Below, piece after piece: positions 10,889 to 47,800 of a stretch of DNA of 64,000 nucleotides. The DNA lies in NCBI RefSeq assembly GCF_949628265.1, contig NC_088787.1, positions 424,501 through 488,500 on the forward strand, written 5' to 3'. The position numbers were made by a program, and so were the translations under genes. Position 1 is the first letter of the stretch. Each line of letters starts with the position of its first letter. The notes beneath the pieces were generated by a model. That model was not told the DNA's origin and searched no databases. It saw only the letters and a program-made list of their open reading frames with translations. The stretch is from Cloeon dipterum (lineage: Eukaryota; Arthropoda; Insecta; Ephemeroptera; Baetidae).

Positions 10889-26938
<16,050 letters not shown>

Positions 26939-27201
26939 GACTTTTCTCCCTCTCGTCGGTCGTTTTATTCTCTCTCTTAAGGTTTAATATAATAATTATT
27001 ACTGATTATTGTGATAATTCATTATTTTTTTCCTCGCTGTACGATATTATTAATAATTTAACGAGTTAGTTTCCTTGTCGCTGAGACGAGTGCCATAAAA
27101 TGTGTTCTTCTGTACATTACATTCACCTGCACAGGCAATAACCACCAGTCACTGCCAAAAATTTATTATTTTTTGTGTAACGCGCAACCACTATTAATTT
27201 A

Positions 27202-28576: not shown

Positions 28577-31284
28577 CTATCGCTCTTTGGCAGAGGCCTG
28601 TTTGGAGGGCTCACCTGAGGGCGGCACGCCCGAGGTACCGGCCGACGGGCCGCTGATGCCGTTGCCCGACGACGTCATCACCGCCTTCTGCTTCAGCATC
28701 GTCCAGTCGAACGTGTAGTCGTACTGGAAGCTCAGCGTGCGGAACAGGATGCGGAACAGCTGCCGCAAGTACATGTAGTCCGGCGCCTCCTCGAACCGCA
28801 GCCCGCGGCTGTAGTTCAGGTACATCGCGAACTCGGCAGGGAAGCCCTAATTGGAAAATATTCAAAATTAATACGATAAAATACAAATTCGGGGAGTTTA
28901 AGGGAAATTTACGTCATTTTTCTCTTTAAAGGACAAGATAAAGGCCGCCATTTTAAATTAATTTTCTCAATTCTTAATAAAATATTATGTAAAAAAATAT
29001 AAAATCTTTAACGCCGCCATTTTGGATTTTAATTTTGAATAATTCGGTAATTTTCTTGATTTAAGGACCAAGAACTTCTAATGCAGACACCGGAAAAAAT
29101 CTAAACTGAATTTTAAACATTCCAAGATGGCGGAATAGACAAAAATCTTAAGGAAGGCCGACATTTTGAGAATTTAAAACACGAAAATCGGAGAAATCAG
29201 CAAGAATTCTTTGTTCAGAGCATTCTCGACGCTCATTGGCTGACGCTGAACGCACGTCAACAGCTCCCGCGGTTGCCTAGCAACGCGTACAGTGAGTTGC
29301 GCGTTGTCAGCCAATGAGCGTCGAGGATTCTTCAAGCAGAAATGACAAAAAATTCTTAAGGAACGCGGTTATTTGAGAATTTAATTAAGAAATTGGTCAT
29401 GGTTAAGCAAAGCAGCCATTTAGATTTAAATTTCGATCAAGAACGTTCTTTTGCTTCAAGACGGCCGACTTGTTGCACCTTTTGAGACGAATTTCCCGTT
29501 TTAAGCGGATCTATTTTCACTTGGCGGAGGAATAACGTAATTTTCGTGATTTAAAGACAAAGAACTTCAACTGAAAAAATCTAATCTGAATGTTAATTTA
29601 GTTTAAAATATTCCAAGATGTCTCGGAATAAACACAATTGAAAATAAAATTATTAAAAAACGCCGATTTCCTTCAAAATAGATTCTTCCTCGCATCAATA
29701 TTATTGAAAGTGATTTTTAACGATTTTAAATGCAGTCAAGGAGCCATTATGATTTAAACTTTGCTTCAAAAACCTAATTATGCTTCAAGATGGAGGCCTT
29801 ATTGCACTTAAGGAGACGAATTTCCTGTTTTGAGCAGATCTATTTTTGCTTGGCGGAGGACCACGGAGGCTCTGATTGTCCCGGCGGCGGAAAACGTCAC
29901 ATTTGGCCAATCAGAACGTCCGCGGTCCTCCGCTGAGCGAAAAAAGATCCTTTATTATTGCGAATTTCCACTCAGAGCCTGATTTTAAACCGCCATTTGA
30001 AAGAAATCATTAATATTTTCAGGTCGAAAGGGGATTTTCTCAAAATATTTTGTCAGTATTCAACTGAAAATATTATTAAAATAATGTTTGACATAATAAT
30101 TCAAAATTCAGCCGATCAAAACAAAGAAAATCCAAAAGTGGCCCGATTTAAATTAATTTCCGGCCGTTTTGGACCTTTTAAAAAATATTCACAGTGGAGG
30201 CCCTTGAAGGGCGGCCGGTTCGAGATTAAAATCGAGTGTCGCGCCGGCTTTTAATTAGCTTTGAGAGCCTGTAAATTTGGAATTAGCGAGATTAGAAGAA
30301 GAATCGATTAGGAGGGAAAGCTGCGTTTTTTTCCGTCAGTTTGCGAGTGCGCGACCTTGGCGGCGCCGATCGCCAATCAAACTGGGTTACGGCACACTTA
30401 GATAACAAAAACAAAGCGACGACGCACTTGCCCGGATTAATTACCGAAAACATTAGGAAATAAATAAAAAATAATGTGTTATTGGGCAAGGTGACGTCAC
30501 GATCACGGCGGGCAAGGGAATGACGTCAGCGAACCTTGCAGAGGACTTCGACCGGCGTGGACATCTTCTTCTCGCTGATCTTCTCGTACTTCTGCTTCTT
30601 GGTGGCGGCCTTGAGGCCCTGCCAGGGCAGCGAGCCGCGGTTGAAGTACATGAGGACGTAGCCGAGCGACTCCATGTCGTCGCGGCGGCTCTGCTCGATG
30701 CCGAGGTGCGCGTTGATGGACGCGTAGCGCGCCGTGCCCGTCAGGTTCTTGTCCTCGCGGTACATGATGTGCTGGCGGGTGCGCGAGTCGCGGAACTTCT
30801 TGGCCAGCCCGAAGTCGATGAGGAAGAGCTTGTTGCAGTGCCTGCCGATGCCCATGAGGAAGTTGTCCGGCTTGATGTCCCGGTGGATGAAGCTCTTGGT
30901 GTGCACGTACTCGATCCTGCCGATCATCTGGTCGGCCAGCATCAGCACCGTCTTGGTGGTGAAGCGGCGCGAGCAGAAGTTGAAGAGGTCCTCGAGCGAC
31001 GGGCCCAGCAGGTCCATGACCAGCACGTTGAACTCGCGCTCCTGCCCGAACCAGCGGATGTGCGGGATGCCGATGCCGCCGTGCAGGATTTTGTACAGCT
31101 TCGACTCGTAGAGCAGCTGCGGGTGGCGGGCGCGCACCGACTCGAGCTTCACGGCCACCTCCTCGCCGTTCGTGATGTTGATGCCCAGGTAGATGTCGCC
31201 GAACGAACCGCTGCCGATCTTACGCACCAGCCGGTACTTGGCCCCCACGATGAACTCCTGCTTGCCCGACGTGACTGAAGACAT
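28577..31284 (-). CDS. CkIalpha: Casein kinase I alpha
   Basis: Ser/Thr protein kinase of the CK1 family; in animals it primes beta-catenin/Armadillo for destruction and acts in Hedgehog signalling (family knowledge). Two coding exons, 31284-30535 and 28846-28577, give 339 residues, close to the usual ~337. Visible: glycine loop GSGSFGDIY (24-32), VAVKLE Lys46, HRDIKPDN (134-141), DFG (157-159), and the CK1-specific SIN stretch ([18 protein letters not shown]). The second exon has the alpha-type end [20 protein letters not shown] and [10 protein letters not shown]. The C-terminal tail ([23 protein letters not shown]) is Ser/Gly-rich. A TCAG|GTGAGC at 28614 could serve as an alternative donor and give another tail. 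The 1.69 kb intron is filled with MITE copies. A poly(A) signal for this strand lies at 27829-27824. Confidence 0.97.
29185..29345. mobile_element. MITE family A, copy in the casein kinase intron
   Basis: Left end TCGGAGAAATCAGCAAGAAT, arms CGACGCTCATTGGCTGACGC and TCAGCCAATGAGCGTCGAGG, centre CCGCGGTTGCCTAGCAACGC. The matching T-to-C changes in both arms (CTCATTGG / CCAATGAG) keep the hairpin paired. The right end is truncated after TTCAAGCAGAAATGAC. Confidence 0.8.
29782..29950. mobile_element. MITE family B, copy in the casein kinase intron
   Basis: GATCTATTTTTGCTTGGCGG, GGACCACGGAGGCTCTGATT and, inverted, CCAATCAGAACGTCCGCGGT then GAGCGAAAAAAGATCC. The left flank again has GAGACGAATTTCCTGTTTTG. 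A partial left-half copy of the same family is at about 29455-29530. Confidence 0.75.
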
Positions 31285-32348
31285 GTTCAGGCCGCCGCTC
31301 CTACACCTGCATCCAGCTGCACCTCGCGAAAAAGCGGCCGATTCTCAGCACTCGCAATCGATAAACTCCCAACTACACACTCGCCATTTCCTTATTTAAC
31401 AGCTGGCTTGCCAAGCTCCCGTCGACTGCTGCCTGCCAACCGAACCGCCTTCCACAACTAACAGTTCCACGCGATTTTCAAAACAAACTCGATCGATACA
31501 GTTGAAAATAATAAAATTCTTTCAAAATAAGTTATTAACTTAAGACTCCTCCCAATAAAACGTTTAATTCAAACCAACAATCGAATTAATTAAATGTTGC
31601 CAGGTTGGCAGCGTCGCGTTTGCGTTCACGGCCAGGCCCCCTTGGCGGCGCTAGCGTCGCTCTCTCACGACCGAGGTTCGAATCACGCCGCTTGGCTAAT
31701 GGCCGTTCGAAATTCGCGCCACCTCCCACTTCCGCTGATCGCCGGAAGCCACCTAATTACGTCTGTTCTCATCGTCCCGGTTCACCGTCATCAGCGTAAA
31801 AAACGACTCTCGTTGCTGTTTTTCAAAAATTCTTAGCCGCAACGTCCAAGAAACCTGCAGAATTTAATAAAACGGGAAAAATAAAGGAAATTCGCAGATT
31901 TGTTTTGATGTCAAGAACCGATTTTTATTAAATTTCTGTCAACCCAACACATTGTAAAGCCCAGTATAACCGGAAAATTGTTATTAACCGGTAGTTTTTA
32001 ACAACATTTACCGGTTTCAATATTACATAGCTGCTTAACATTCGCCCTACTTTCGTTTAAACCGGTTTCCATTCTGACCCAAACCGGTTTTCCTTGTTCG
32101 GCTCGCCTGTCAGCTGACGGGGTCGCTTCGACTGTCCGAGCGGCCGTCACTCAAAAATATTTATTATTGTTAGGCAAGAGGTGTGCTGTGGGTATGTATG
32201 TACGTGTGTGATTGTGCATTCGGTAGTGACGCAAGACAACCAACGATTCTCGGTGCTCGGTGCAGGATCAATCGGATTATGCCAAGTGCGCCGCTGGTGG
32301 CGAGCGTAAACACGACGAGGCGCACATGATCCGTTCTCCGTCGCAGTC
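31285..32348. promoter_or_regulatory. Divergent intergenic region between casein kinase I alpha and the esterase gene
   Basis: 1,064 bp between two start codons facing away from each other, holding both 5' UTRs. I see no TATA box at a sensible distance. A stretch at about 31965-32095 repeats the motif AACCGG / CCGGTT at least six times, which may be a regulatory cluster. No coding exon was recognised here. Confidence 0.5.
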
Positions 32349-35300
32349 ATGAGCCGCCTCTGGGACCAGCTGTGGGCCGTCGCCGGCCCCGACGCCCTCA
32401 GGTCTTCCTGGAACGACTCGGCGGATTTCCTGCTGCAGAACAAGGTGCGTCACCGCCCCGCTGGCTCTGATTATGTCACGGGTTCAATAGGTGGCCGAGA
32501 TATGTTATTCATCCATTTAACAGGTTGCCACCTATTGTAAGGTGTCCCCAGTGGCCTGGATAGGTCAACCTCCGATAATTTAATGTGGTTCTCAACTGTT
32601 TGTTGTCCAATTTTGGCAGGTGGGGCTGCTGTGGCTGTTGCTGCTGGCCGTGGTGGTGACGGTGACGACGCTGCTCGTGCGGAAATGGAAGAACAAAGGT
32701 ATTAGCAAACACCCTGGCCCCTGGCCCTGAGGAGACCCTTTAATCGGACTCAGGTTTCGTTGCAGACCTGATCCCGGCCGAGGTGAAGGAGGTGCTGGGC
32801 GTGGGCGGCGGGCGGCCGCGCTTCCGCAAGCGGGACAAGGTGCTCTTCTACGGACGCAAGATGCTGCGCAAGGTGACCAGCATCTCTCGGCAGGTGCACA
32901 GCACGCAGGGCAAGCGCAAGAAGCTCATCAAGTTCGCAGGCCGATGGCTGCAGTTCAAGCGCGACGCCGTCCCGGCCCAACTCAAGGTGCTCGAGCCGCC
33001 CTCCGAGTACCTCGAGGAGGCCACCACCTCCGGACAGGACGACCGCGTCCCCCTCGACGCTCTCTACATCCTCCAGAGCATAAGGTGTGCACCCTTATCC
33101 TTATTTTTTTTTCAAAATGTCATTTTTTGCTCGGAAATTAACAAATAAATTTATTTTCAAATTTTTATGGCTGCCATTGGAATAATTTTGGCGATTTTAA
33201 AACGAAAAAATCGTTTTTTTATTTTAAAAAACCTGTACCTTTTTTGATGAGGTGAAAAACCTTTTTAAAACATCTTTACAATTTTTTATTTTTGGATAAA
33301 ATCGATTTCGCGCCATTTTACTTCCAATTCGAGTCGAAATCAGGCTTTCAAAGTCGCATTTATATGGTTTAAATGACTTATCTTAATTATAACGGGTAAT
33401 TCAAAAAATTCTTGGCACTTTTTTCGCCGTTTTAATAAAAAAAAACCAGTATTAAAGAGAGAATTAAAATATTACACAATTTAAATTCAAATGTGGCTGC
33501 CTGTAGAGATAAACTGCGCCGCAATTCGTTGAAATGAAAAATTCTTGGAGAAATTCGCTTTTTTCCGCGTCACCGATGTTTCAACGCGTTAATAAACGAA
33601 TTATTCTCACCTTTTGAGGCTTGAAAAGATCGTTGTTTTGCTGAAAATAAAAATGACGGGAAATCTGAACGGCCAAAATTCGCAGCATTCATTTTTACAG
33701 ACGAAAAATTCATTTGCGGGGATCTTGAAGAGGGGCGTAACTCCCAGAAAATTAAATAGGGGGAGTGGCAGTCATCATTACCCGCGGAAAACACGACATT
33801 TTAATTCTTGAACTGATCTGAACTCTAAACAAAAATATAAAAAAAAAATTATTAGCGGGAAATTCGAAAAATTCTTGGCTCTTATTTCGCCATTTTGGAA
33901 TCAAAAAACAATATTTTAAGCTCAGAATTAAACAAAGTAGGTAAAATAGTACGCAATTAAAAATCAAAGATGGCCTCCTGAAGAGATGAACTGCGCAGAA
34001 ATTCCTGAAATTCGTTGAAATGAAAAATTCTCGGAGATTTTCGCTTTAGATCGGGTCACTGAGGTTTCAACGCGGTAACAAATGAATTATTCTCACCTTT
34101 TGAGGCTTGAATAGTTCGTTATAGGCTAAAATTCGAAATGGCGGGAAATCTAAACGGCCAAAATTCGCAGCGAATAGAAAAGGGGGCGCGGCAGTCGTCA
34201 TTTCCCGCGGGAAACAAGACATTTCAATTCTTGCAACGAAAGTTAATCGATTTTGACCTAAAATAGTCGGAAAATAGATTTGATTTCACCGTCTGACCCT
34301 TGAACAAAAATAAAATAATAAAAACTGCTGGTATTTGGTAAACGTCAAGCTTTTCTGTGAACAAATACAACTCTTTCTCAATTTTAAAAGCCAGTAAATA
34401 TTTTTCCAGCTCTTAAAGTTATGTCAATCGAGTACGTAGCAGTGAAATAATTTCTATATGAGGGGTTGTGCGCGAGTGCAAATCGTTAATCACAACCCTT
34501 GACTCTGCACATGCGATTTGTTTTGCACGGTTTCGCGGAGCAAGGCCGCGACTCTGCGCACTTGCGAAATAATGTCAGCATTGAAACCGCGAGGAGAGCT
34601 GACGCAGCTAAAAGCACTCATCTCATTTGTTTTAATGCGCCTCGTTGTCATTATCAGACACTCAATTAGGAAAAACAATTATCTCAAAGCCAAATTTGGG
34701 TCGTGGACTCAATTGGATTGAAAAATGTCATGATGAAATTTCAGGGTGTTCGGACATTTCGAGAAGCCCGTCTTCCTGACGCTGTGCAAGCACGTGGAGG
34801 TGGTTCGTCTGCACGCCGGCTCGTACCTTTTCAAAATCGGTGCGGCTTTTAATTTCCATTATTTTAAATTTATTTCCCTAAATAATATTCTTCTGAAGGT
34901 GACCCGGACGAGAACGTGTACGTGGTGCAGGACGGGCTGCTGAATGTGTACATCACGGGCACTGACTCGACGACGCTGACCCTGAAGTACGTGAAGAAGG
35001 GCGAGAGCGTGACGTCGCTGCTCAGCTTCGTCGACGTGCTCGCCGGACACCCCAGCCCCTACAAAACCGTCTCCGCCAGGGCCATCGAGGACTCCATCGT
35101 CCTCAGGCTTCCAGTCAATGCCTTCCAAGAGGTCTTCGAGGTATCGGTTGGAACTACGGATGTGTTTTTTGGCGATATTTATTGATATTTTTCTGTAAAT
35201 ACACGATTTTAATAAATATCGTTCGACACCGGGCGATATATCGACATTTCCCTATCCTTTAACACGGTGCGATATCGATGTATCGCCCAGTATCATTTGA

Positions 35301-38300
35301 CATTGGTTAAAAACGCAGTTTTCACGCCCGGAATTTTCAGGAATACCCTGACACGTTCATCAGGGTGATTCAGGTGATCATGGTGCGTCTGCAGCGGGTC
35401 ACGTTCACGGCGCTTCACCAGCACCTCGGTCTCAGCGCCGAGCTAGTCAATCCGGTAAGACCTAAAAATCATTCCTCCGACCCTGAAATCTGGAATTTAT
35501 TTTCCCATCTCTTCTCAGGGTCCGGCGCACCACCAGAAGCGGCGGACGAGTCCGTTTGTGACGTCGCCGTCCAAGAGCAGGCACTCGTGGGTGCAGGCGG
35601 AAGGTGAGCAGGCGCCGGAGGAACCGAGCTCGCTCTTCGAGGAACTCCGGCTAAAGGATTTTTTTCCCTCAGACACGATGGACGCCGAGTTCAGTCCCGA
35701 GGGCACGCAACCGGTGCCCATCGTGAGGCCGCGGACGCACAGGGCGGCCTCCTCGGCGCACACGCCCGACATGGTGCCGGAGCTCGACCCCACCATCTCG
35801 CCCCAGGTGCCTTTCCCCTCCCCTCCCCTCTCGTTATTCACTCAGAGCTAACCCTCAACTCAGCCTTCGCAGTGGCGCCTCATGCGGTTTCTTTTCGTAA
35901 CTACTTTAATTTTTTTACTCACGAGGCACATTTTTTGCCGGGAGAATTTGGACAACGCCCCTTTTTGTTTGTTGCAGCCTCCCGACCTGACGCGCCGCCG
36001 CACGGTGCCCGATTTGAACGACGAGGACACCCTGATCGAGATCGCCACGGCTGCCTTCGTCAGGGAGCTCGGCCTCGACGACGCCACCGTGCTCCAGGGT
36101 GGAAAAGTTCAGCTCAGGGACGTGCCCGTCGGCACCCACCTCATGAAGGAAGACTCGCACAAGGTACCAAACATGCCCTGACCCTGAGACTCGAGAATTA
36201 ACTAGTTTTTATTAGGACGTGGCGCTGATTTACGTTATCTCCGGCATGCTGACGGTGTCGCAAAAGAGCGCGGTGAACCCGCAGGAGGACGACGAGGTGT
36301 ACATGTTCTCGGCGTCGCATGGCGAGGTCGTGGGTGGGCTGGCCGTCCTCACGGGCGAGCCCAGCTTCTTCACCATCAAAGCAAAACACTTTACTAGGAT
36401 TGCTCTTTTATCAAAGAGCACTTTTTATAGGTCAGTATAATTATTATCGTTAAAAAATCGGATCTCAGGTCGGGGAACCCTGAGAAAGGTCATCAGGGTA
36501 GGCTAGGTTGAAGCGCAGACTGAAACCTATCTGACGAGGGGTCGTGGTTGATGGTGGGACGAACGGCCGAATTTAAACAAAAATAAAACCACTTTTATGT
36601 GAAGTCGGAAAAGCGTAAAAAATTAATTTTAATTTTTCTATGGGCGAGAAAAATCTGAAAATCGGTTTCCAGACCGGCAACGATCTTTAGCGTGTGATTC
36701 AGTAGGTAAAACTCTTTAAATTTGTTCCGTTTGGAAAAAATCTCAAATTTCGGATTTGTGACAGAAAATCACGTTTTTCAAAGTTCAAAAATTATCTAGT
36801 CCTAGTTTTTGACCGGATCTGCTCGTATTTGGTCTCAAAATGTTCACAGATAAATTCCGCGTTGATTTACTGTGCGGTTTGTCGAATTTTTTCCCCAATC
36901 GCGAAAAATTGCGATCACCGGAAGCCGGAAATTGTGTCTTTTAAATAATTTTATTAACACATTCAACGAATATTCCTGATTTTTTTTCCAGTATCATGCG
37001 AGAACGGCCGAAGGTCGTTCTGCACGTGGCCCGAACCGTGGTCCGCAGGCTGTCACCTTTCGTGAGACAGGTCGACTTCGCCCTGGACTGGGTCTTTCCC
37101 GAGAGTGGCCGCGCACTCTACAGGTTGGAATTCCCTGATTTAACTTCTGATTTATTTATTTATTTCTCGTGCTTTTTAGACAAGATAACGATTCTGACTG
37201 CACTTACGTGGTGCTGAGCGGGCGTCTTCGATCTGTGATCACGCACGCGAACGGCAAAAAGGAGCTGGTCGGCGAGTACGGCAAGGGCGACCTCGTCGGA
37301 ATTGTTAGTTTCTTTCTTTTAAATTAAGGTTACAATTTATTTAATTAATTTTCAGGTCGAGATGGTGACCAAAACCAAGCGGAGCACCACCGTCATGGCT
37401 GTGAGAGACACCGAGCTTGCAAAATTGCCTGAAGGTTCGAAGACGTAGCCGAAAATGTGGTTTCTATTAAAATTAAATTTCAGGTCTCTTCAACGCGATC
37501 AAACTGCGCTTCCCGATCGTGGTGACGCGGCTGATCAGTTTGCTCGGCCACCGCATCCTTGGCTCCTGGCAGAAACCCTCCATCGGCCGTGCCATCGATT
37601 CCAGGCCAACTCAGGTAATTTTTTCGCTTATAAATCAACCTTTTAACCCCAGAAATTTAATTTTCCAGGTGAATTTGTCCACGGTGGCGGTGGTGGGTAG
37701 TTCGGACGACGTGCCGCTGACGGCGTTCTCGCACGAGCTGTTCCACGCGCTGGCGGCGACCGGCCACTGTCTGCGGCTGACGTCGGAATCGATCCGCAAG
37801 TCGCAGGGCATGTCCATCCTCGACCCGAACAACGAGTACCGGCTGACGTCGTGGCTGGCCCAGCAGGAGGACCAGCACCGCATCGTGCTCTACCAGTGCG
37901 ACACCTCCATGTCCGCCTGGAGCCAGCGCTGCATCAGACAGGCCGATTGCGTCCTCATCGTCGGACTCTTCGAACGCGGACCCAACGTCGGAAAGGTCAG
38001 TTGATCGCCATTTTTAAAACTTCGGCGCAATTCCTCACGGGGAGACGCCTTGATATGGATTTTTACAAAGGAGTGCAAGCCATTTCCTAAACAAATTTAA
38101 TGCGGCAGCCATTTTTTGAAAATGGAGGAGGGAAAATTATTAAGAACGCTTTTTGGAATTTTAAAAATTAAAATGCGAGATCTTGCATTTTTATTAGATA
38201 TTTGAATAACATAAAACTCAAACAGATATACTATCGCCACCATTTTAAACCATCTTAGAGGATTTATTTGGCTTCAAAGCTATTTAAAAATGGCGGAAGA

Positions 38301-41300
38301 AAGATTCATGTACGAAAACCTTAATTCGCCGCCATCTTGAACCAGCTGATAGGAAAAAATTGGCTACGACGCCATTTAAAAATGGCGGAAGCAAGAATTC
38401 TTAACGAAATCCTTGATTCGCCGCCATTTTGAATAATCTTAAAGGAAAAATTGCCGAAATAAATTTAAAAATGGCGGCTCCTTTAAAGGATTTTCCTTCA
38501 TTTTTCTATTTTGTTTTCAATTTTCATCCAGATGGAAAAGGAGGTTGAGCGTCTGGGCATGCGGACGCAGAAGGAGCTGGTGCTGCTGCATCGAGAAGGC
38601 AGCGCCAAGCCGAAGAACACGGTCGAATGGCTGAACAACCGCACCTGGATATCGCAGCACCACCACCTCATCTGCCCAAAACGCATGTTCTCGAAGCGAT
38701 CGCAGAACCAAATCGCGGAATTGTACAGCAAACTCATGCTGACGCCGCCGGACATCCACTCGGACTTTTCGCGGCTGGCGCGCTGGCTGACGGGCACCTC
38801 GGTCGGCCTCGTGCTCGGCGGCGGCGGCGCCAGGGGCGCCGCACACGTCGGCATGATCAAGGCCATTTTGGTGAGACAAACAATTCGATTTTTCACAAGA
38901 ATTCTTTGTACGAAAATTCTTCTGTCAACTCAACTGTTCCCACGGTTGCTTAGCAACAGCTCAAATTGCGCGGGAACGAGAATTTTATAAACAAAGAATT
39001 CTTGCCGCTTTCTTTGTTTTTTTTCCACAAGAATTCTCTGCACGAAAATTCGTCGACGCTGATTGGCTGTTGTACGCGCATGACAGATTCCCCGGCGCAT
39101 TTAAGCAAGGGTTCCTGACGCATGCGGGTACATCAAGAATTCTTGGAGCAAAGAATTTTAGCGAAATTATCCTTTTCAAGTGAGACAAGAGGAAATTATT
39201 TCAAATTGCAGGAGGCCGGCATTCCGATCGACATGGTCGGGGGCGTGTCCATCGGCGCCTTCATGGGCGGGCTCTGGTGCCTGGAGAGGGACATCGTCAC
39301 CATGACCCAGAAGGCCAGGGAGTGGTCCAAGGTAATTAAAAAGAATAATTCAAGATGGCGGCTCTTGGGGCCGAATTAACCGCGTTAAATTGTTCTGCAG
39401 AAAATGACGAGCTGGTTCAAGCAGCTGCTGGACCTGACCTACCCTGCGACCTCCATGTTCACGGGCAGCGTGTTCAATCAGACGATCCGCGACACGTTCG
39501 GCGAGACGCTGATCGAGGATCTGTGGATCCCGTACTTCACGGTCACGACGGACATCTCGGCGAGCGCGCCGCGCATCCACACCCACGGTCTGATAAATAC
39601 AACTTTACAAACGCTTTCTCTTTCTTTCTTTATCTCTCTCTCTCGACAACTCTGAAGGCTATTATCCCCGACGACGCGACCCTCACGCTTCACACCCTGC
39701 TAATTTTCACTTCCACCCGCCGGACCGCTTCGAAGCTTTCAAATCTCCCTTCTTAAAATTCAAAATGGCGCCCCCTGCCATTTTGAATCTTTCTTTCAAA
39801 GCTGCGAAACTGTCCGGCGAGGCGAGTAGCATGCGCCTCTCCCGAAAGCATTAATTCTTTTATCAAGTCTGCGGTGAATGGACGGGGTTGTTTTGCATCC
39901 AAAAGACTGAATTGAAGGGGTGTGCTGTGTGTATGCTGACGCGGCGGTTTGCTTGTCAGGATCGTTGTGGCGTTACATTCGGGCGTCCATGTCCCTTTCC
40001 GGCTACATGCCGCCCCTGTGTGACCCCACCGATGGCCACCTGCTGCTCGACGGAGGGTACGTCAACAACCTGCCAGGTAATTTGACTCTCTCTGCAATTA
40101 ATATTAAGAAAATGGGTCCTAAAATTGCATCTCTCTCTCTCTCTCGGCTGCAAGTCGGTTCGTTTGATGATGGCGTGAATGCGTGTGCATGTCCACATTT
40201 TTGGTTTAAAATCTTTCTTTTTCTTCGCGCTCACACTCTCTCTTTCAACTTTAGAGTAGAGCGGCGACTTGCTCGGTGTGTTTCCTCATTTCTTTTAGCT
40301 GTTGTTTGCTCTAAATTGGATTGGTTTGGAATTAGAACACGTGCTTTTGGCGCCAAAAAATATTCGCGCGCTAGAGAAAGCCGGAATTTTCCGCTTACCT
40401 TGATCAATCGATGAATAATCGAAGAAACATGTGAAAAGGTCGATTTAATTGCGGAAGTAAACACGCAAATCGGATAATTAAGCTAAAATTCTTTGCTCCA
40501 AAAATTCTCGACATACGCGCATGCGTCAGGAACCCCCGCTTAAATGCGCGGGAGATTCTGTCATCCGTACAACAGCCAATCAGCCGAATCAGCGTCTAGG
40601 AATTTCCGTGCAGAGAATTCTTGTGCAAAACCTTTGCCTGTAAAGTTCTCGACGCTGATTGGCTGACGCGACAACCTCCCTCTCAATCTGTTATTGCTAA
40701 GCAACCGCGGGAATAGTTGACAATCGGGTTGCGTCAGAGAATTTTCGTTCAAAGAATTCTTGAGAAAAATCGAAGAAAACAGCAAGAATTCTTTGTTTAT
40801 AAAATTCTCGACGCTGATTGGCTGACGCTGAATTTTCGTGCAAAGAATTCTTGCTGCCTGTCTCTCTCTCCCCACTTCTAATTTTCGAAAAATGGCGCCA
40901 AACACGCGTGTTTGAAGAAATGTGCCTGCTGAAAGCCGAAACTGGATTTGAAATGCGCGAGGAAACGCACTGTTGCAAGCGAGTCGCCGAGGTGGTAGTC
41001 TTGTCTGTCTGTCCTCGCAAGGTCGCCGCGCATAATAGACTTCAGGTGGTGCAAAAAGAGGAAAATTTACGAACGAAAAGCGAGTAGTTGTCTGACTCTT
41101 GGTGCCGACAGGCGTGCTTTGGAGGTACTGCCGCGCCAGCATGTCGGTGGCGGGCATTTTCCCGCCCGTTTGCGACCCGCACGACGGGCACTTGCTCATC
41201 GACGGGTGTTACGTCAACAACGTGCCAGGTAACCCATCAAACACCAAAAATGAGACACGCAGACATAAATTCAATTCAATATTATTCACATACTCGCTTT

Positions 41301-43392
41301 TGCTCTCCCGTTCGACTTGTGAGGATTAAGCGCGGTCGAGGTCGGCCATTAAAGAAATACAAAAATGGAGGCAACATTCGCACCTCGACCGTCCTTAGTG
41401 TGGATGACTCGAGGCAATTTTAGAACCCATGCTTTTGTTCCCCCTGTAAAATAACAACACGCCTTTCGAATTGGGCCTAAATTTAAATAATTTATTGGAA
41501 CATGAAAATGGCGGCTGCTCGCGTCCTTTAAGAAGCGACTGTTGCGCCTGCCGCCCAATTCGAGGACCCTCTAACAAAAATGCACAGTCATATTCCCGTA
41601 CTTTCGGCCGGTACTTTAGGCATTTTTGTGTTTCTTTTCGTGTTCAAAGCGGACGTGATGCGCAGCCAAGGTGCGAGGCACATCCTGGCCATCGACGTGG
41701 GCTCGCAGGACGACAAGGACCTGACCAACTACGGCGACACGCTCTCAGGCTGGTGGCTGCTGTGGAAGCGCTGGAATCCCTTCACCTCGCCCGTCCGCGT
41801 GCCGAACCTGCCAGACATCCAGACGCGACTCGCCTACGTCTCCTGCGTCCGACAACTCGAGGTGACAGCAAAATTCTTCCTGCCACGCCCATTTTAATGG
41901 AAATTCGGAAAATTCTTTCACTCTCCCGCATTTTTTTGACTTAATTTTATCCGTTTTACACAAAAAACGATATTCATTTGTTTTTCTTTGCTGAAAAATT
42001 GTAGCTGACACGCCCCTTGCTCCAATTTCGCGCGCCTGGTGTTGGTCCCCTGGTTGATTTTACATTAAATCGAAGAATTTTAAACTGCCACGCCCATTTT
42101 AACGTGAATTCTTTAAGTCTCCCGCCTTTTTTCGCCACACAGACTCTGTTTTTGACTAATTTATAACGATTTACATAAAAAACGACGATGTTTTGTTTTT
42201 ATTTCCTAACAAATTCAACGACCACGCCCCCATTTTTAATTACCGACCGTTATATCCAATTCAGGAGGTGAAAACGAGCGACTACTGCGAGTACATCCGG
42301 CCGCCGATCGACAAGTACAAAACGCTGCAGTTCGGCAGCTTCGACGAGATCAAGGTTCGTCCTTTTTGCCTTGCCCTGAAGGTCGTGTGACTGGAAGGTT
42401 TTGCAGGACGTGGGCTTCCTGTGCGGGAAGACGTATTTCGCGGGCCTGCTGAAGGCGGGCAGCACGCTGCCGTACACCAACAGCCGGGCCGAGGAGATCG
42501 CGCCGTGCGCTCTGAGCGCGGTGCTGAGCAGCCGCACCCTGATCCGGAGGACGATGCCGGACGCCTCGCCGCACTACACCTTCACCGACCTGGCGCAGAT
42601 GGTGTGCAAGGAGCCGAAATACGTGGACGAAGGTCTCTTAAAATTCATTAGTTTGTAAAAAACCGCTATTTTCATGATGCAATGCGAAAGTTTGGGATAA
42701 TTGATGCTAAATTAAAATTGCGCATGCGTCAAGTCAGTCAAGTGTCTTGTTTCTAGTAAAGCAGCGCTTTCTAGGCCCCCTAGCGAGCATTACTCTAAAG
42801 AGAGGAGTTCTAAGAGGAGTGTAAGTTAAGGAGTAGTAGAGTATCAGCTGTGATGCCATTGTCGCATGCTAGTATCTACTCTCCTTTCCTTACACTCGAG
42901 TGATGCTCGCTGGGGGGCCTAGAGAGCCGGCGCATCTGATTGGTCGCCGTGCTGCTTTGCTACGAAACAGTAATTGACGCATGCGCCGTTTGCTTGCAAG
43001 CTTGAAAAATCATTTCGGCGAAGGGTTCTCGCTCGCAGCCACCGCGCTTTCTGCTTAGTCCATTGGTTTTTTTTATTTTATTTTATTAAATTGAATTTTG
43101 GTGCTGCGATGGATCGGAAGGCCGGGTGGAGTCGCCAGGTGAGCGCAGCGGACTGCTTCAACGCTTTCTTCTCAAACTTGCAGAGTCGTCGAGCGAGGAG
43201 GACTACTACGAGGACGACGACGACGACGAGGACGACACGGACCAGGAGGCGCAGGTGGGCGGCTACGTGTCCGAGCCGACGGTCGGCACCAGCATGCGCC
43301 AGCCCAAGCAGAAGGGCTACTCGCTGTCCGACAACGAGCTCGACGACGCGCGCATTGGTAGAATCGATTTAACAGACGTCTCCTACGTCTAA
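32349..43392 (+). CDS. sws: Neuropathy target esterase / Swiss cheese lysophospholipase
   Basis: ER-anchored patatin-type phospholipase (PNPLA6/7 family) that deacylates phosphatidylcholine and lysophosphatidylcholine. Exons: 32349-32444, 32620-32698, 32766-33084, 34745-34839, 34899-35140, 35341-35454, 35519-35603, 35673-35806, 35978-36163, 36216-36430, 36992-37123, 37180-37303, 37356-37434, 37484-37614, 37669-37995, 38532-38870, 39212-39331, 39401-39587, then 39960-40076 or 41112-41228, 41650-41861, 42265-42354, 42407-42632, 43184-43392. Sum 3,858 nt, 1,285 residues. Membrane segment ~33-52 ([20 protein letters not shown]). Cyclic-nucleotide-binding-like domains follow from ~165 and ~400-600. 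The patatin domain has GGGGARG (~882), nucleophile motif GVSIG (Ser ~912) and Asp of DGG/DGC (~1032). The acidic tail ([14 protein letters not shown]) ends in TAA. Exons 7-8 flank a 69-bp intron whose retention would keep the frame. Confidence 0.96.
33085..34744. repeat. Direct repeats inside an esterase intron
   Basis: Two related stretches of about 430 bp (approximately 33370-33810 and 33840-34230) share ATTCTTGGAGAAATTCGCTT-like, TCACCTTTTGAGGCTTGAA and GGCCAAAATTCGCAGC blocks in the same order. A third, shorter copy lies downstream of the gene at about 43690-44410. No coding capacity. Confidence 0.6.
38876..39175. mobile_element. MITE family A, two adjacent diverged copies
   Basis: First copy about 38892-39003 (CACAAGAATTCTTTGTACG and ACAAAGAATTCTTGCCGC ends, centre CACGGTTGCTTAGCAACAGC). 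Second about 39025-39175 (CACAAGAATTCTCTGCACG, GTCGACGCTGATTGGCTG, right end CAAGAATTCTTGGAGC). They lie in the esterase intron between the exons carrying GGGGARG and GVSIG. Confidence 0.65.
39960..40076 (+). CDS. sws: Alternative exon A of the esterase (catalytic Asp, DGG form)
   Basis: 117 bp with AG acceptor before 39960 and GT donor after 40076, phase 1 at both ends, 39 residues. It reads [18 protein letters not shown] through [13 protein letters not shown]. The DGG is the form I associate with vertebrate PNPLA6/7. Splicing to 41650 gives LPADVMRSQ, the expected continuation. Confidence 0.9.
40485..40858. mobile_element. MITE family A, clustered copies between the two alternative esterase exons
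   Basis: At least two copies: about 40490-40625 (AAAATTCTTTGCTCC left end, GTGCAGAGAATTCTTGTGC right end) and about 40630-40858 (arms CTCGACGCTGATTGGCTGAC twice, centre GCTAAGCAACCGCGGGAA). They occupy the middle of the 1,035-bp stretch separating alternative exons A and B. Confidence 0.7.
41112..41228 (+). CDS. sws: Alternative exon B of the esterase (catalytic Asp, DGC form)
   Basis: 117 bp, same phases and the same 39-residue length as exon A, with 28 of 39 residues identical. It reads [18 protein letters not shown] through [13 protein letters not shown]. Including both exons would duplicate the active-site strand, so they are expected to be mutually exclusive. The DGC form resembles what I recall of Drosophila Swiss cheese. 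Confidence 0.9.
42719..42986 (+). mobile_element. MITE family C, copy 1
   Basis: Terminal inverted repeats TTGCGCATGCGTCAAG and ATTGACGCATGCGC. Inner landmarks are AGGCCCCCTAGCGAGCAT, GGAGTAGTAGAGTATCAGC and GGGGCCTAGAGAGCCGGCGC. About 268 bp, non-coding, in the last intron of the esterase gene. Confidence 0.8.
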
Positions 43393-43607
43393 AACCGAGG
43401 CTGTGTGTTGCACAGATTGAGCCGCTGATGCTGCACCGCAACTCTCAAGACTGTACTCCGAGATTCGAGGCCCAAGCGGGAGCGGACACGCCCCCCCCCC
43501 TCCACAAGACCACAAGAGAGTCTCGTGCTAAAGACAAGTGTGATACACGCGATATAGTCAACGTTTGGTTCCTCCATTTTATTTGTTGCACGGATTGTTA
43601 GCCAAAG

Positions 43608-43613
43608 AATAAA
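43608..43613 (+). promoter_or_regulatory. Poly(A) signal of the esterase gene
   Basis: AATAAA 216 bp after the TAA at 43390-43392, plus strand. Confidence 0.6.
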
Positions 43614-43871
43614 GAAAATTATGCGTTGTTTCAGTATAAATATATTTATCGTGTATTTTACCTCTGATATTTAAGTTTTACTTCAGATCGAGTCGAAATC
43701 ACGCTTTCAAAGACGTATTTTATGGATAAAATAAATTAACGTAATATTGGCGGGGAATAAAAAAAATTCTTGGAGCGTTTTTCGCCATTTTGATATAAAA
43801 AAATGATATTTAAAATCAAGAATTAAAATACTATGTGTGAAACTAACGTAAAATTTAGGCAAAATTAAAAC

Positions 43872-44140
43872 TGCGCATGCGTCAATTACTGTTTCATAGT
43901 AAGCAGCGCGTCGACCAATCAGATGCGCCGGCTCTCTAGGTAGGAACGTGACGACCGCTTCCATACTGGAGTGTGAGGAAAGGAGAGCAGATACTAGCAG
44001 GTGACAACGGCATCAGAGCTGATACTCTACTACTCCTTAACTTACACTCCTATTAGAGCTCTTTACAGTGATGCTCGCTAGGGGGCCTAGAGAGCCGGCG
44101 CTTCGCTGCTTACTACAAAATACGACACTTCTTGACGCAA
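43872..44140 (-). mobile_element. MITE family C, copy 2 (inverted)
   Basis: The same element as at 42.7 kb in the opposite orientation: left end CTGCGCATGCGTCAATTACTG, CCAATCAGATGCGCCGGCTC, GATACTCTACTACTCC. The right terminus is shortened to CTTGACGCAATT. It lies just beyond the esterase poly(A) signal. Confidence 0.75.
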
Positions 44141-44815
44141 TTAAAAATCAAAGATGGCCGCCTGAAGAGATGAAATGAAAAATTCTTGGAGAATTTCGCT
44201 TTTTACTGAGTCACTGATGTTTCAACACAGTAACAGAGGAATTATTATCACCTTTTGAGGCTTAGTTGTTTTGCTAAAATTCAAAATGGCGGGCTATCCA
44301 AATCCAAACGGCTAAAATTCGCAGCATTCATTTTTGGACAACTTCACTGGCGGGGCCCATATAGATGGAAAAAACATCTGACGGGAAATTCAAAAAATTC
44401 TTGGCGTGCTAATTGCGAACGACAGGAAAATAAAAGCATTGTTTCAGTATAAAATATATTCATCGTATATTTATTATATAGATATATTTATTTATGCATA
44501 GAAGTTAGTTAATCTTTAGACACGTCTAATATTATGCTGAATATCGCGACTCGCTGCGATTGTGAGGGCAGCGAATCCTTGATCACCAGGGGACATGGCG
44601 AACGAAGCTTCCTTCCACTTTATTTAATCAGATACCAGACACTTAAATTACATAAATTATTTCAATTTGTTCGCTGTCCGGCATTTCGTCCGATACTTGG
44701 AGTTCAAAAAGCAAACCTAAGAAATCGGTTAAGCTAAGAAGTGGTCGCAGCGTTCGTTCAGCGAAGAAGACAAGGCACAGAATTTTAGTTTTCAGTAGCG
44801 AGATGCGACGAGTGT

Positions 44816-47800
44816 TCAATGAGGCAGCTGGCGCAGGCTCTCCACTTCCTTGCGCGTGCGGTTGAAGGCCTGTGTCTTCACAAAGTCGACCGTGTTGTAA
44901 ATGGTCGGCGGGCCGAGCGACAGAGTGCTTTTGCTCGGCTGCCGACTCGCCAGTCCGCCGCTCGCGCCGCCCATCTCCAGGTCCAGGTCCAGGTACTTCA
45001 GCTTGTCCAGACCCTTGCTCGACGGCACGAATTTGTTGTTCACGATGTGAAAAAAGTTCTGAAATTAACATTTTTCATTAGTTAAGGAAGCAAAAGCGTT
45101 AAAAGTTGGTTAAATTGCGAATAAACACTAGAAAATCGAAGAAAGCAGCAAGAATTCTTCGTTTTTAAAATTCGTCGACGCTGATTGGCTGACGCTTAAC
45201 GCTCCCGCGCATTTTGAGCAGTTGCTAGGCACCCGTGGGAACTGTTTACAAGTGCGTTGCGTCAGCCAATCAGCGTCGAGGAATTTTTCAGCAGAGAATT
45301 CTTGTGAAAAATCAAAGATTGGCAAGAATTCTTTGTTTCAAAAATTCTCAGCGCTGATTGGCTAACACAAAACGCTCCCGCTCAATTTGAATTGTTGCTA
45401 GGCAACCGTGGGGACCGTTAAAAATCGCGATGCGTCAGCCAATCAGCGGTGGCGAATTTCTGTGCCGAAAATTCTTGGGAAAAATTCGAAAAATCGAAGA
45501 AAGCAGCAAGAATTCTCGACGTTGTCGCGCATTCGTCAGGAACTCCCGCTCAAATGCGCGAGACGAGATTCTGTCATGCGCGTACAACAGCCATTCAGCG
45601 TCAAAGATTTTTCGTGCAGAGAATTCTTGTGAAAATTCTTTGTTTATAAAATTCTCGACGCAAAACGCTCCCGCGTGTTTTGAGCAGTTGCTAAGCAACC
45701 GTGGGAACAGTCAACAATCGCGCTGCGCCAACCAATCAGCGTTGAGTATTTTATAAACAAAGAATTCTTGCTGTTTTCTTCCGTTTTTGTGTTTAAAATA
45801 AGAGTTAAATCAGATTTTAATTAATTTACGGCAGGGTAAATCGACAGATTAATTAAGAAATGATCAGGCAACTGGATTCCCGCTAATCAGTAGCAGGATG
45901 GTTTTGCATGGGGTTCTTTTGACGGCAAAATTCTTTGCTCAAAAAATAAATCGACGTTGGAAGGCACCAGGTTTTCTTTTTCGAGTTTAATTATCTCTCA
46001 ATGAGGTTTCTTTTACATTAATTTATATAATGTTACATCGAGATGATTTAATTTCAAAGCGAGCTTTATTATTTTTATTTACCTGCTCTTCGTCGGATTC
46101 TTCAGAGCACGAGTTTCCGTGGAAAAAAGCGCCGACAGGTCCGAACGTGCCGGGGGGCGTGGGGCTGGGGGCGGCCCTCTGCCTCCGCTGGCGGCCCTCA
46201 GCGCCCCTCTGGGTCGGCGGGGCGGCCAGGGTGAAAGCTTGCTCGTCGGGGCTGTCAGGGGCGTTTCGCCGCCTCGGCTTGAGGGCACGGTCGACGCAGG
46301 GGGCGGGCGAGGGGCTTGGCTCGCTCCTGCGGGGCTTGAGGTCGCGGTGCACCGAGGGCGGGGGCGGCGGACTGCCCAGCTCTTCAGAGTCGTCCTCGGA
46401 GCGCGGCGTGCCGGGCTCCTCCGAGGTCTCGTGCACCTCGAACTGGAAGACGGTGCCGGTGGCCGTCGAGGACGAGGAGGACGTCGTGGCCGCCGCGTTC
46501 GAGTAGCAGTTGCGGCCGGCGGCTGGGTGCTGCCGCGGAAAGTCGTACATCTCGTCCAGGCAGTCGGGGCTGCGCGGCGCCGGACGCGTCGGCGCGCTCG
46601 CCCGGTTCTCCAGCACGCTCTCGATGTTCAGGTAGCTGTGCACCTCGGCCAGGTGCGACGGCTTCGGTGGGCGTGGCGGCGCCGACACCTCCTCGCCGCC
46701 GCCGCCGTTGCCGCCCCCGATCGCCCTGCTGAAGCGCTGAGCGGCCACCAGAGAGCCCAGCTCCGCAGAACTCGGCTGCTCTTCTGTCGTTGACGCCTCC
46801 GAGCTCTCAGACGCCCGTTTTCTGCACCAAGAAAAAAAAACAGCATTAAAGGACACGTCAAGGGCCGCCATCTTGGATTTATAAAAATTGCAACAAACAT
46901 TTTAAGAACGTGTGGGACAATTGGATAGGTTGAAAACACCGAAAGGAAGACCTAAATGGCGGAATTCAGGCCTGGAATCTAAGGACACGTCAATTGGTCG
47001 CCATCTTGGATTCGAAATTTGGCGCCAAGCACTTTTCCAAGCGTTCTTCCACAAACAACAGCTCGAAATTTTTAAATATAAACAGTTTTTACTAGTTTGG
47101 AGTCTACACGCCGCCATTTTGTATTTTTCCTTTAAAGTAAATTAATTTGTTAAGCTGTAACTTGTTCATTTTTGGCCTTTAGGAGACATTTCAACAAACC
47201 ACCACCTCTAATGACGTTAAAAATTAAATTCTTGGCCACCTTTTAAATTTTAAAAAATATATGGCCTTTAAAATGCCACCATTTTGATCTTTATCTTGAA
47301 CCTTTATACAAAATTTTGTATCACACCAAAAAATAAAATTCAAAATGGCGGATGTCCCAGGCCTTTAAGATACCAAGTGGAAGATTCCTTTAAAGTCGAA
47401 ATAAAAAATACGTACAAGCTGAGTTCGGAGACGCTGTCCCTGGGGAAGGTGTTCCAGTTGACAGAGGGCGCCCTGGCGACGTCCCAGGTGAAGACGTCGT
47501 CGTCTGCCTGCGCGAGGGAAACGGGGGCAGCGAGGGTGCGCGGTTGGTCGTAGAAGTCATCGACAGGGTGCGGCGCGTCAAAGAGGCGCGTCGGCTTCTG
47601 GCCCCTGGAAGTCATTGAAGCGACCTGGGCCTCGAGTTGTTTGGTCAGCACGCCAGGTGGCGGCTGCCCTGAGTAGCACTCGCTGATGAAAATGTATGGC
47701 GTCGACCCTGAGCTCTGAGAGGGCGGCTCAGGGTCGGTCAGGGGCGGGAACGAGAGCTCCTCCACCTCCACGGAGCCGAAGGTGGCGTCCATCTCGGCCC

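Follow-up and report, generated by a model that had tools for sequence, protein, structure and literature searches.

Neuropathy target esterase (NTE) is the enzyme through which organophosphate-induced delayed neuropathy arises. It is also a cause of inherited disease in humans, and the swiss cheese (sws) gene of Drosophila, the orthologue of PNPLA6/NTE, provides the fly model (PMC9025805). In the human enzyme the catalytic pair is formed by Ser1014 and Asp1134, and the same article reports four canonical human isoforms. It also describes two sws isoforms of 1425 amino acids each, and isoforms of equal length are what an exchange of equal-length exons would give (PMC9025805). Mutually exclusive exons occur in insect genes such as Dscam, 14-3-3zeta, Mhc and MRP1, and like the NTE exons described here they are homologous, arranged in tandem and alike in length and phase. 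The NTE case differs from these in consisting of two exons instead of a large cluster, and in exchanging a segment that carries a catalytic residue. Since one survey gives nine mutually exclusive events with an effect on catalytic sites (PMC7954323), exchanges of this kind are known and rare. The same segment surrounds the catalytic Asp of Pseudomonas PlpD and of bacterial RssA patatins. Such introns are not known from bacterial genes.

The window, that is, the whole stretch of 64,000 nucleotides of Cloeon dipterum DNA that was analysed, contains an NTE gene in which the catalytic-Asp segment is encoded twice. It is very probable that these are tandem-duplicated exons of the patatin domain, most likely included one per mRNA to give two full-length enzymes. 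This A/B pair is known here from one animal genome and from its DNA alone. The relevant features of the gene are as follows.

38532-38870, + strand: NTE exon stretch with the putative oxyanion-hole motif; an AG precedes its left edge and its start is approximate
39212-39331, + strand: exon with GVSIGA, the catalytic Ser motif of patatins
39401-39587, + strand: exon preceding the alternative pair, ending in phase 1 with the weak donor GTCTGA
39588-39959, + strand: intron ahead of exon A, 372 nt
39960-40076, + strand: alternative exon A, 117 nt, its first Gly begun by the upstream exon
40077-41111, + strand: A-B intron, 1035 nt, containing dispersed-repeat sequence
41112-41228, + strand: alternative exon B, 117 nt, its first Gly begun by the upstream exon
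41229-41649, + strand: intron past exon B, 421 nt
41650-41861, + strand: exon following the alternative pair, starting in phase 1

The gene had been named NTE in the original prediction, and both its domains and the restriction of genome protein matches to this locus bear out that identity. In three-frame scans of 35000-44982, the cyclic-nucleotide-binding domains come first along the strand, followed by the NTE P-loop-like domain and then the patatin domain. The cyclic-nucleotide-binding family PF00027 matches at E 5.2e-11, with a second match (E 1.7e-4) that is under the family cut-off, and the NTE P-loop-like domain PF24179 is recovered in two parts in two frames (E 6.7e-35 and 2.8e-18). 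The patatin family PF01734 matches at E 2.8e-20, with GVSIG (GxSxG) present; this family also matches four stretches besides NTE. When the 190-Mb genome (10 contigs) was searched with the catalytic-domain protein, all six matches among the best candidates scored lay at the NTE locus, and no NTE paralogue was found elsewhere in the genome among those candidates. Five tandem copies of the telomere word TTAGG gave no exact match. A hydrophobic stretch near 32584-32680, noted by eye in the translation, is a candidate for the N-terminal transmembrane segment of an NTE. At about 25000-27000, NTE is preceded by the 3' part of a type IV collagen gene that has Collagen and C4 domains and runs on the same strand.

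Exons A and B are adjacent and internal, with more exons of the gene on either side. Each is flanked by AG and GT and is in phase 1 at both ends. A GT at 39588 follows the upstream exon, and an AG at 41648-41649 precedes the downstream one. The first base of the shared Gly codon is supplied by the upstream exon end at 39587, and the exon at 41650 opens with bases 2 and 3 of an Ala codon. Exon A encodes DGGYVNNLP and exon B encodes DGCYVNNVP. The patatin motif DG[G/A] therefore fits exon A (DGG), whereas exon B (DGC) departs from it. Inclusion of A alone or of B alone joins in frame with zero stops, and inclusion of both or of neither is likewise in frame. Two 117-nt exons with the same phase-1 boundaries, each carrying the patatin-Asp segment, were what had been predicted, and their coordinates, AG/GT flanks and frame all hold. 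By splice-site position, the coordinates of the four junctions proposed at the same time (39587-39960, 39587-41112, 40076-41650 and 41228-41650) are also correct.

The two segments share 28 of 39 residues, a recount that returns the figure given earlier, and 78 of 117 nucleotides. They match each other at E 1.6e-18 in a tblastn search of the 64-kb window, where no third copy of the exon was found (next best E 0.11). Their 39 base differences are distributed over codon positions 1, 2 and 3 as 15, 5 and 19. Nei-Gojobori estimates of dN 0.28 and dS 1.53 are rough, with silent sites near saturation, and maximum likelihood gives a dN of 0.21, its dS (39) being unusable. For comparison, exon A was given 39 random changes in each of 20,000 sets: in none are as many as 28 residues still identical (the mean is 16.1 and the maximum 25), and a stop codon arises in 13,756 of them. 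Because the silent sites are near saturation and no random set keeps this much of the protein, the duplication is old, with both exons kept as coding. The protein identity of A and B is thus maintained by purifying selection.

Twelve exon stretches, a part of the gene, were queried against the window (13 queries, with A and B entered apart), and among these only A/B has a strong second copy. No convincing duplicate was found for the 11 other queried stretches, whose weakest chance-level matches have E values of 0.007 and 0.011. Remnants of the duplication were sought in the flanking introns as well, but the best same-strand match, of 11 nt at E 0.045, is not convincing. The differences between the two segments had been predicted to cluster around the active site. 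They are instead spread along the linear segment, the 11 differing residues lying at a mean distance of 13.18 residues from the Asp, compared with 13.19 under random placement.

The human gene is interrupted by an intron at the corresponding place and in the same phase. The PNPLA6 variant c.3428-44G>A gives p.Pro1142_Ala1143ins14 (PMC13282554). By arithmetic on this variant, c.3428 falls on base 2 of codon 1143, which puts a human phase-1 intron directly past residue 1142. This is eight residues past Asp1134, provided that PMC9025805 and PMC13282554 number the protein alike, and in exons A and B, too, the boundary comes eight residues past the Asp and in phase 1. Human PNPLA6 also has the DGG of exon A, since a forward primer given in PMC13282554 translates as HLLMDGG; the suggestion that the DGG form is vertebrate-like is confirmed to this extent. 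Human NTE is left with no activity by either this 14-residue insertion or the substitution T1115P (PMC13282554). By arithmetic, T1115P maps into the A/B segment 19 residues before the Asp, at the position of the last Ser of RASMS here.

These human data help to weigh what the two exons might do in the messenger. Skipping both would lose the catalytic Asp. Inclusion of both, always or often, would lengthen the enzyme by repeating the 39-residue segment in tandem, and such an arrangement is permitted by the anatomy: A joins to B in frame without a stop, and an intron of 1035 nt is long enough to be spliced normally. The repeat would, however, insert 39 residues at NNLP|A, a junction where 14 residues abolish the activity of the human enzyme (PMC13282554), and by this analogy joint inclusion is expected to yield an inactive protein. 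In addition, one patatin active site should not be able to hold two catalytic-Asp segments. Homologous neighbouring exons that have the features predictive of mutual exclusion and yet are not exclusive are reported from only six of 1705 fly X-chromosome genes (PMC3228551). Routine inclusion of both exons is most improbable on these grounds. Because neither exon means no Asp, and both mean 39 residues where 14 kill the human enzyme, splicing of one of the two is the most likely arrangement.

A different possibility is that one copy is dying or has never been used, and the weak upstream donor that the two exons share could be read in this way. Against this, 28 of 39 residues have been kept despite near-saturated synonymous sites, and both copies are free of stops and have intact splice sites. 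A copy left unused for so long should have decayed, and a dead or dying exon is very unlikely here. In the preferred reading, tandem exons used one per mRNA, each messenger would take exactly one of A and B, and the two enzyme forms would differ at 11 residues of the 39-residue catalytic-Asp segment. The pair has the features used in PMC3228551 to predict mutually exclusive exons, namely similar length, same phase, compatible splice sites and homology. The original prediction of mutual exclusion is in this respect supported, with a conserved pair that has all of these features.

It had also been proposed that different lineages each kept one copy of the duplicated exon. This view is unsupported, and it is doubtful for flies, which have the two sws isoforms of 1425 amino acids (PMC9025805). 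Given their equal length, flies probably share the pair and already have it in their annotation; an entry for it in FlyBase or UniProt likely exists. A literature search that covered few subscription papers found no description of this pair in NTE/sws. Fly sws presumably carries the DGC form.

Bacterial relatives were compared with the two forms as a guide to which is older. At E values up to 1e-10, 31 of 149 genomes gave matches, and 30 homologues, all from one bacterial phylum, were aligned. The residue next to Asp-Gly is Gly in 24 of these, Ala in four, Leu in one and Phe in one, with Cys in none, and the Cys of form B at this place is thus unusual. At position 7, 11 homologues have Ile as in A, 15 have Val and none has Cys as in B. 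Elsewhere B is closer to the bacteria: its Phe17, Val20 and Val38 occur in 28, 20 and 19 of the 30 homologues, compared with zero, two and nine for the residues of A at the same positions. The RssA model scores B at 53.2 bits, slightly above A at 50.7 bits. Because the Cys of B is missing from all 30 bacterial sequences, yet B matches bacteria at other sites, neither form is simply ancestral and each is a mosaic.

In the CDP stretch, A and B both carry two inserted residues. Neither PlpD nor any of the 30 bacterial homologues has this insertion, and the two forms therefore probably descend from one NTE exon. PlpD, which has DGG, was the only solved structure to match at E values up to 0.01. 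Among viral contigs no relative was found. A lone locus from the search of genome contigs was set aside as a probable chance match: its frame is short and lies opposite an open frame of 319 aa, and nothing in the genome that contains it matched the alignment.

The DGC and DGG forms might differ in substrate preference, redox sensitivity or organophosphate reactivity, with tissues switching between them, although this suggestion is tentative. If the forms do differ, the pair would be ancient in arthropods, and work with a single sws cDNA would have seen one of two enzymes. If insects make two versions of the active site, earlier rescue and inhibitor work based on a single cDNA may have to be repeated with the other form. 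Human PNPLA6 has DGG like exon A, and the choice of insect isoform could therefore matter for modelling the human enzyme.

Several mechanisms are capable of making neighbouring exons exclusive. Crowding of splice sites is made improbable here by the 1035-nt A-B intron, and frame-dependent decay by the fact that A and B together are in frame. A mixture of U2 and U12 sites does not fit either: judged by the general consensus, none of the seven donors read is U12-like. Because these three mechanisms do not fit the anatomy, exclusion would more plausibly be enforced by regulation, through RNA structure or splicing factors, although this step is a weaker one than the exclusion itself. Donor strengths were compared using generic position weights. 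On this scale the donor of exon A (CAG|GTAATT) is equalled or bettered by 0.7% of the 731 GT sites in 30000-45000, and that of exon B (CAG|GTAACC) by 2.1%. The common upstream donor at 39587 (ACG|GTCTGA) is weak, with 25.6% of the same sites scoring as well or better. A weak shared donor may help regulated exon choice.

A search for competing RNA structures in 40077-41111 had been proposed, and two candidate stems were found when paired intron elements were sought.

39651-39675 (5' arm) with 41022-41046 (3' arm), + strand: candidate stem S1, weak, which would loop out exon A
40112-40131 (5' arm) with 41411-41430 (3' arm), + strand: candidate stem S2, which would loop out exon B

The 5' arm of S2 begins about 36 nt past the end of exon A. 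S1 and S2 cross each other, and the resulting topology resembles a bidirectional pairing model named in PMC6071210. Within the preferred reading, the two stems might set the choice of exon. They were picked after the fact among eight region pairs of one species. Dinucleotide shuffles of the proximal regions rarely reach the observed scores, with five of 200 for S1 (first intron and B-proximal part of the second) and two of 200 for S2 (A-proximal part of the second intron and the third). When whole introns are shuffled the counts rise to 16 of 200 for S1 (first and second introns) and five of 200 for S2 (second and third). Partition-function folding of 39588-41649 assigns 16.2 expected pairs to S2, but 0.0 to S1.

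Comparison with real sequence is less favourable to these stems. Window placements with the same spacing reach the run scores of S1 and S2 in 40 and 62 of 600 cases, and placements at random places do so in 30 and 50 of 600. The best duplex energies of the two region pairs are equalled in 19 and 29 of 100 shuffles and, for real placements, in 47 and 82 of 100; in the S1 region pair, moreover, a duplex other than S1 is the best one. Candidate stems are thus present, but as splice-regulating structures S1 and S2 do not rise above the real-sequence controls in the window. Because real placements match both their run scores and the duplex energies of their regions, the stems are not claimed as regulators, and control of exon choice by this crossing pair is improbable.

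The introns also contain repeats that could form RNA structure. One inverted repeat lies within the A-B intron.

40262-40355 (left arm) with 40893-40989 (right arm), + strand: inverted repeat S3 in the A-B intron, with one genome match per arm

The arms of S3 flank a dispersed-repeat insertion in this intron. The run score of S3 is equalled in none of 200 shuffles and in 24 of 600 real placements, and its pairing energy in none of 100 shuffles and 16 of 100 real placements. S3 is a candidate for a test of splice control. The acceptor region of exon A (39934-39956) could pair with 40975-40997 at -26.5. The latter segment overlaps the right arm of S3, such that the acceptor pairing and S3 would compete. 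Whole-region folding gives this acceptor pairing 0.0 expected pairs.

Two introns carry inverted copies of a dispersed repeat, at 38884-39172 and 40472-40774, that are 73% alike and bracket three exons, exon A among them. The energy of the RNA duplex between these copies is -327.6, compared with a mean of -102.9 for 30 shuffles. Pairing of this kind could loop out the three exons or favour circular RNA. Words of the AARATGGCG type, noted by eye, recur in the introns of the gene near 39353, 39763, 40890 and 41504.
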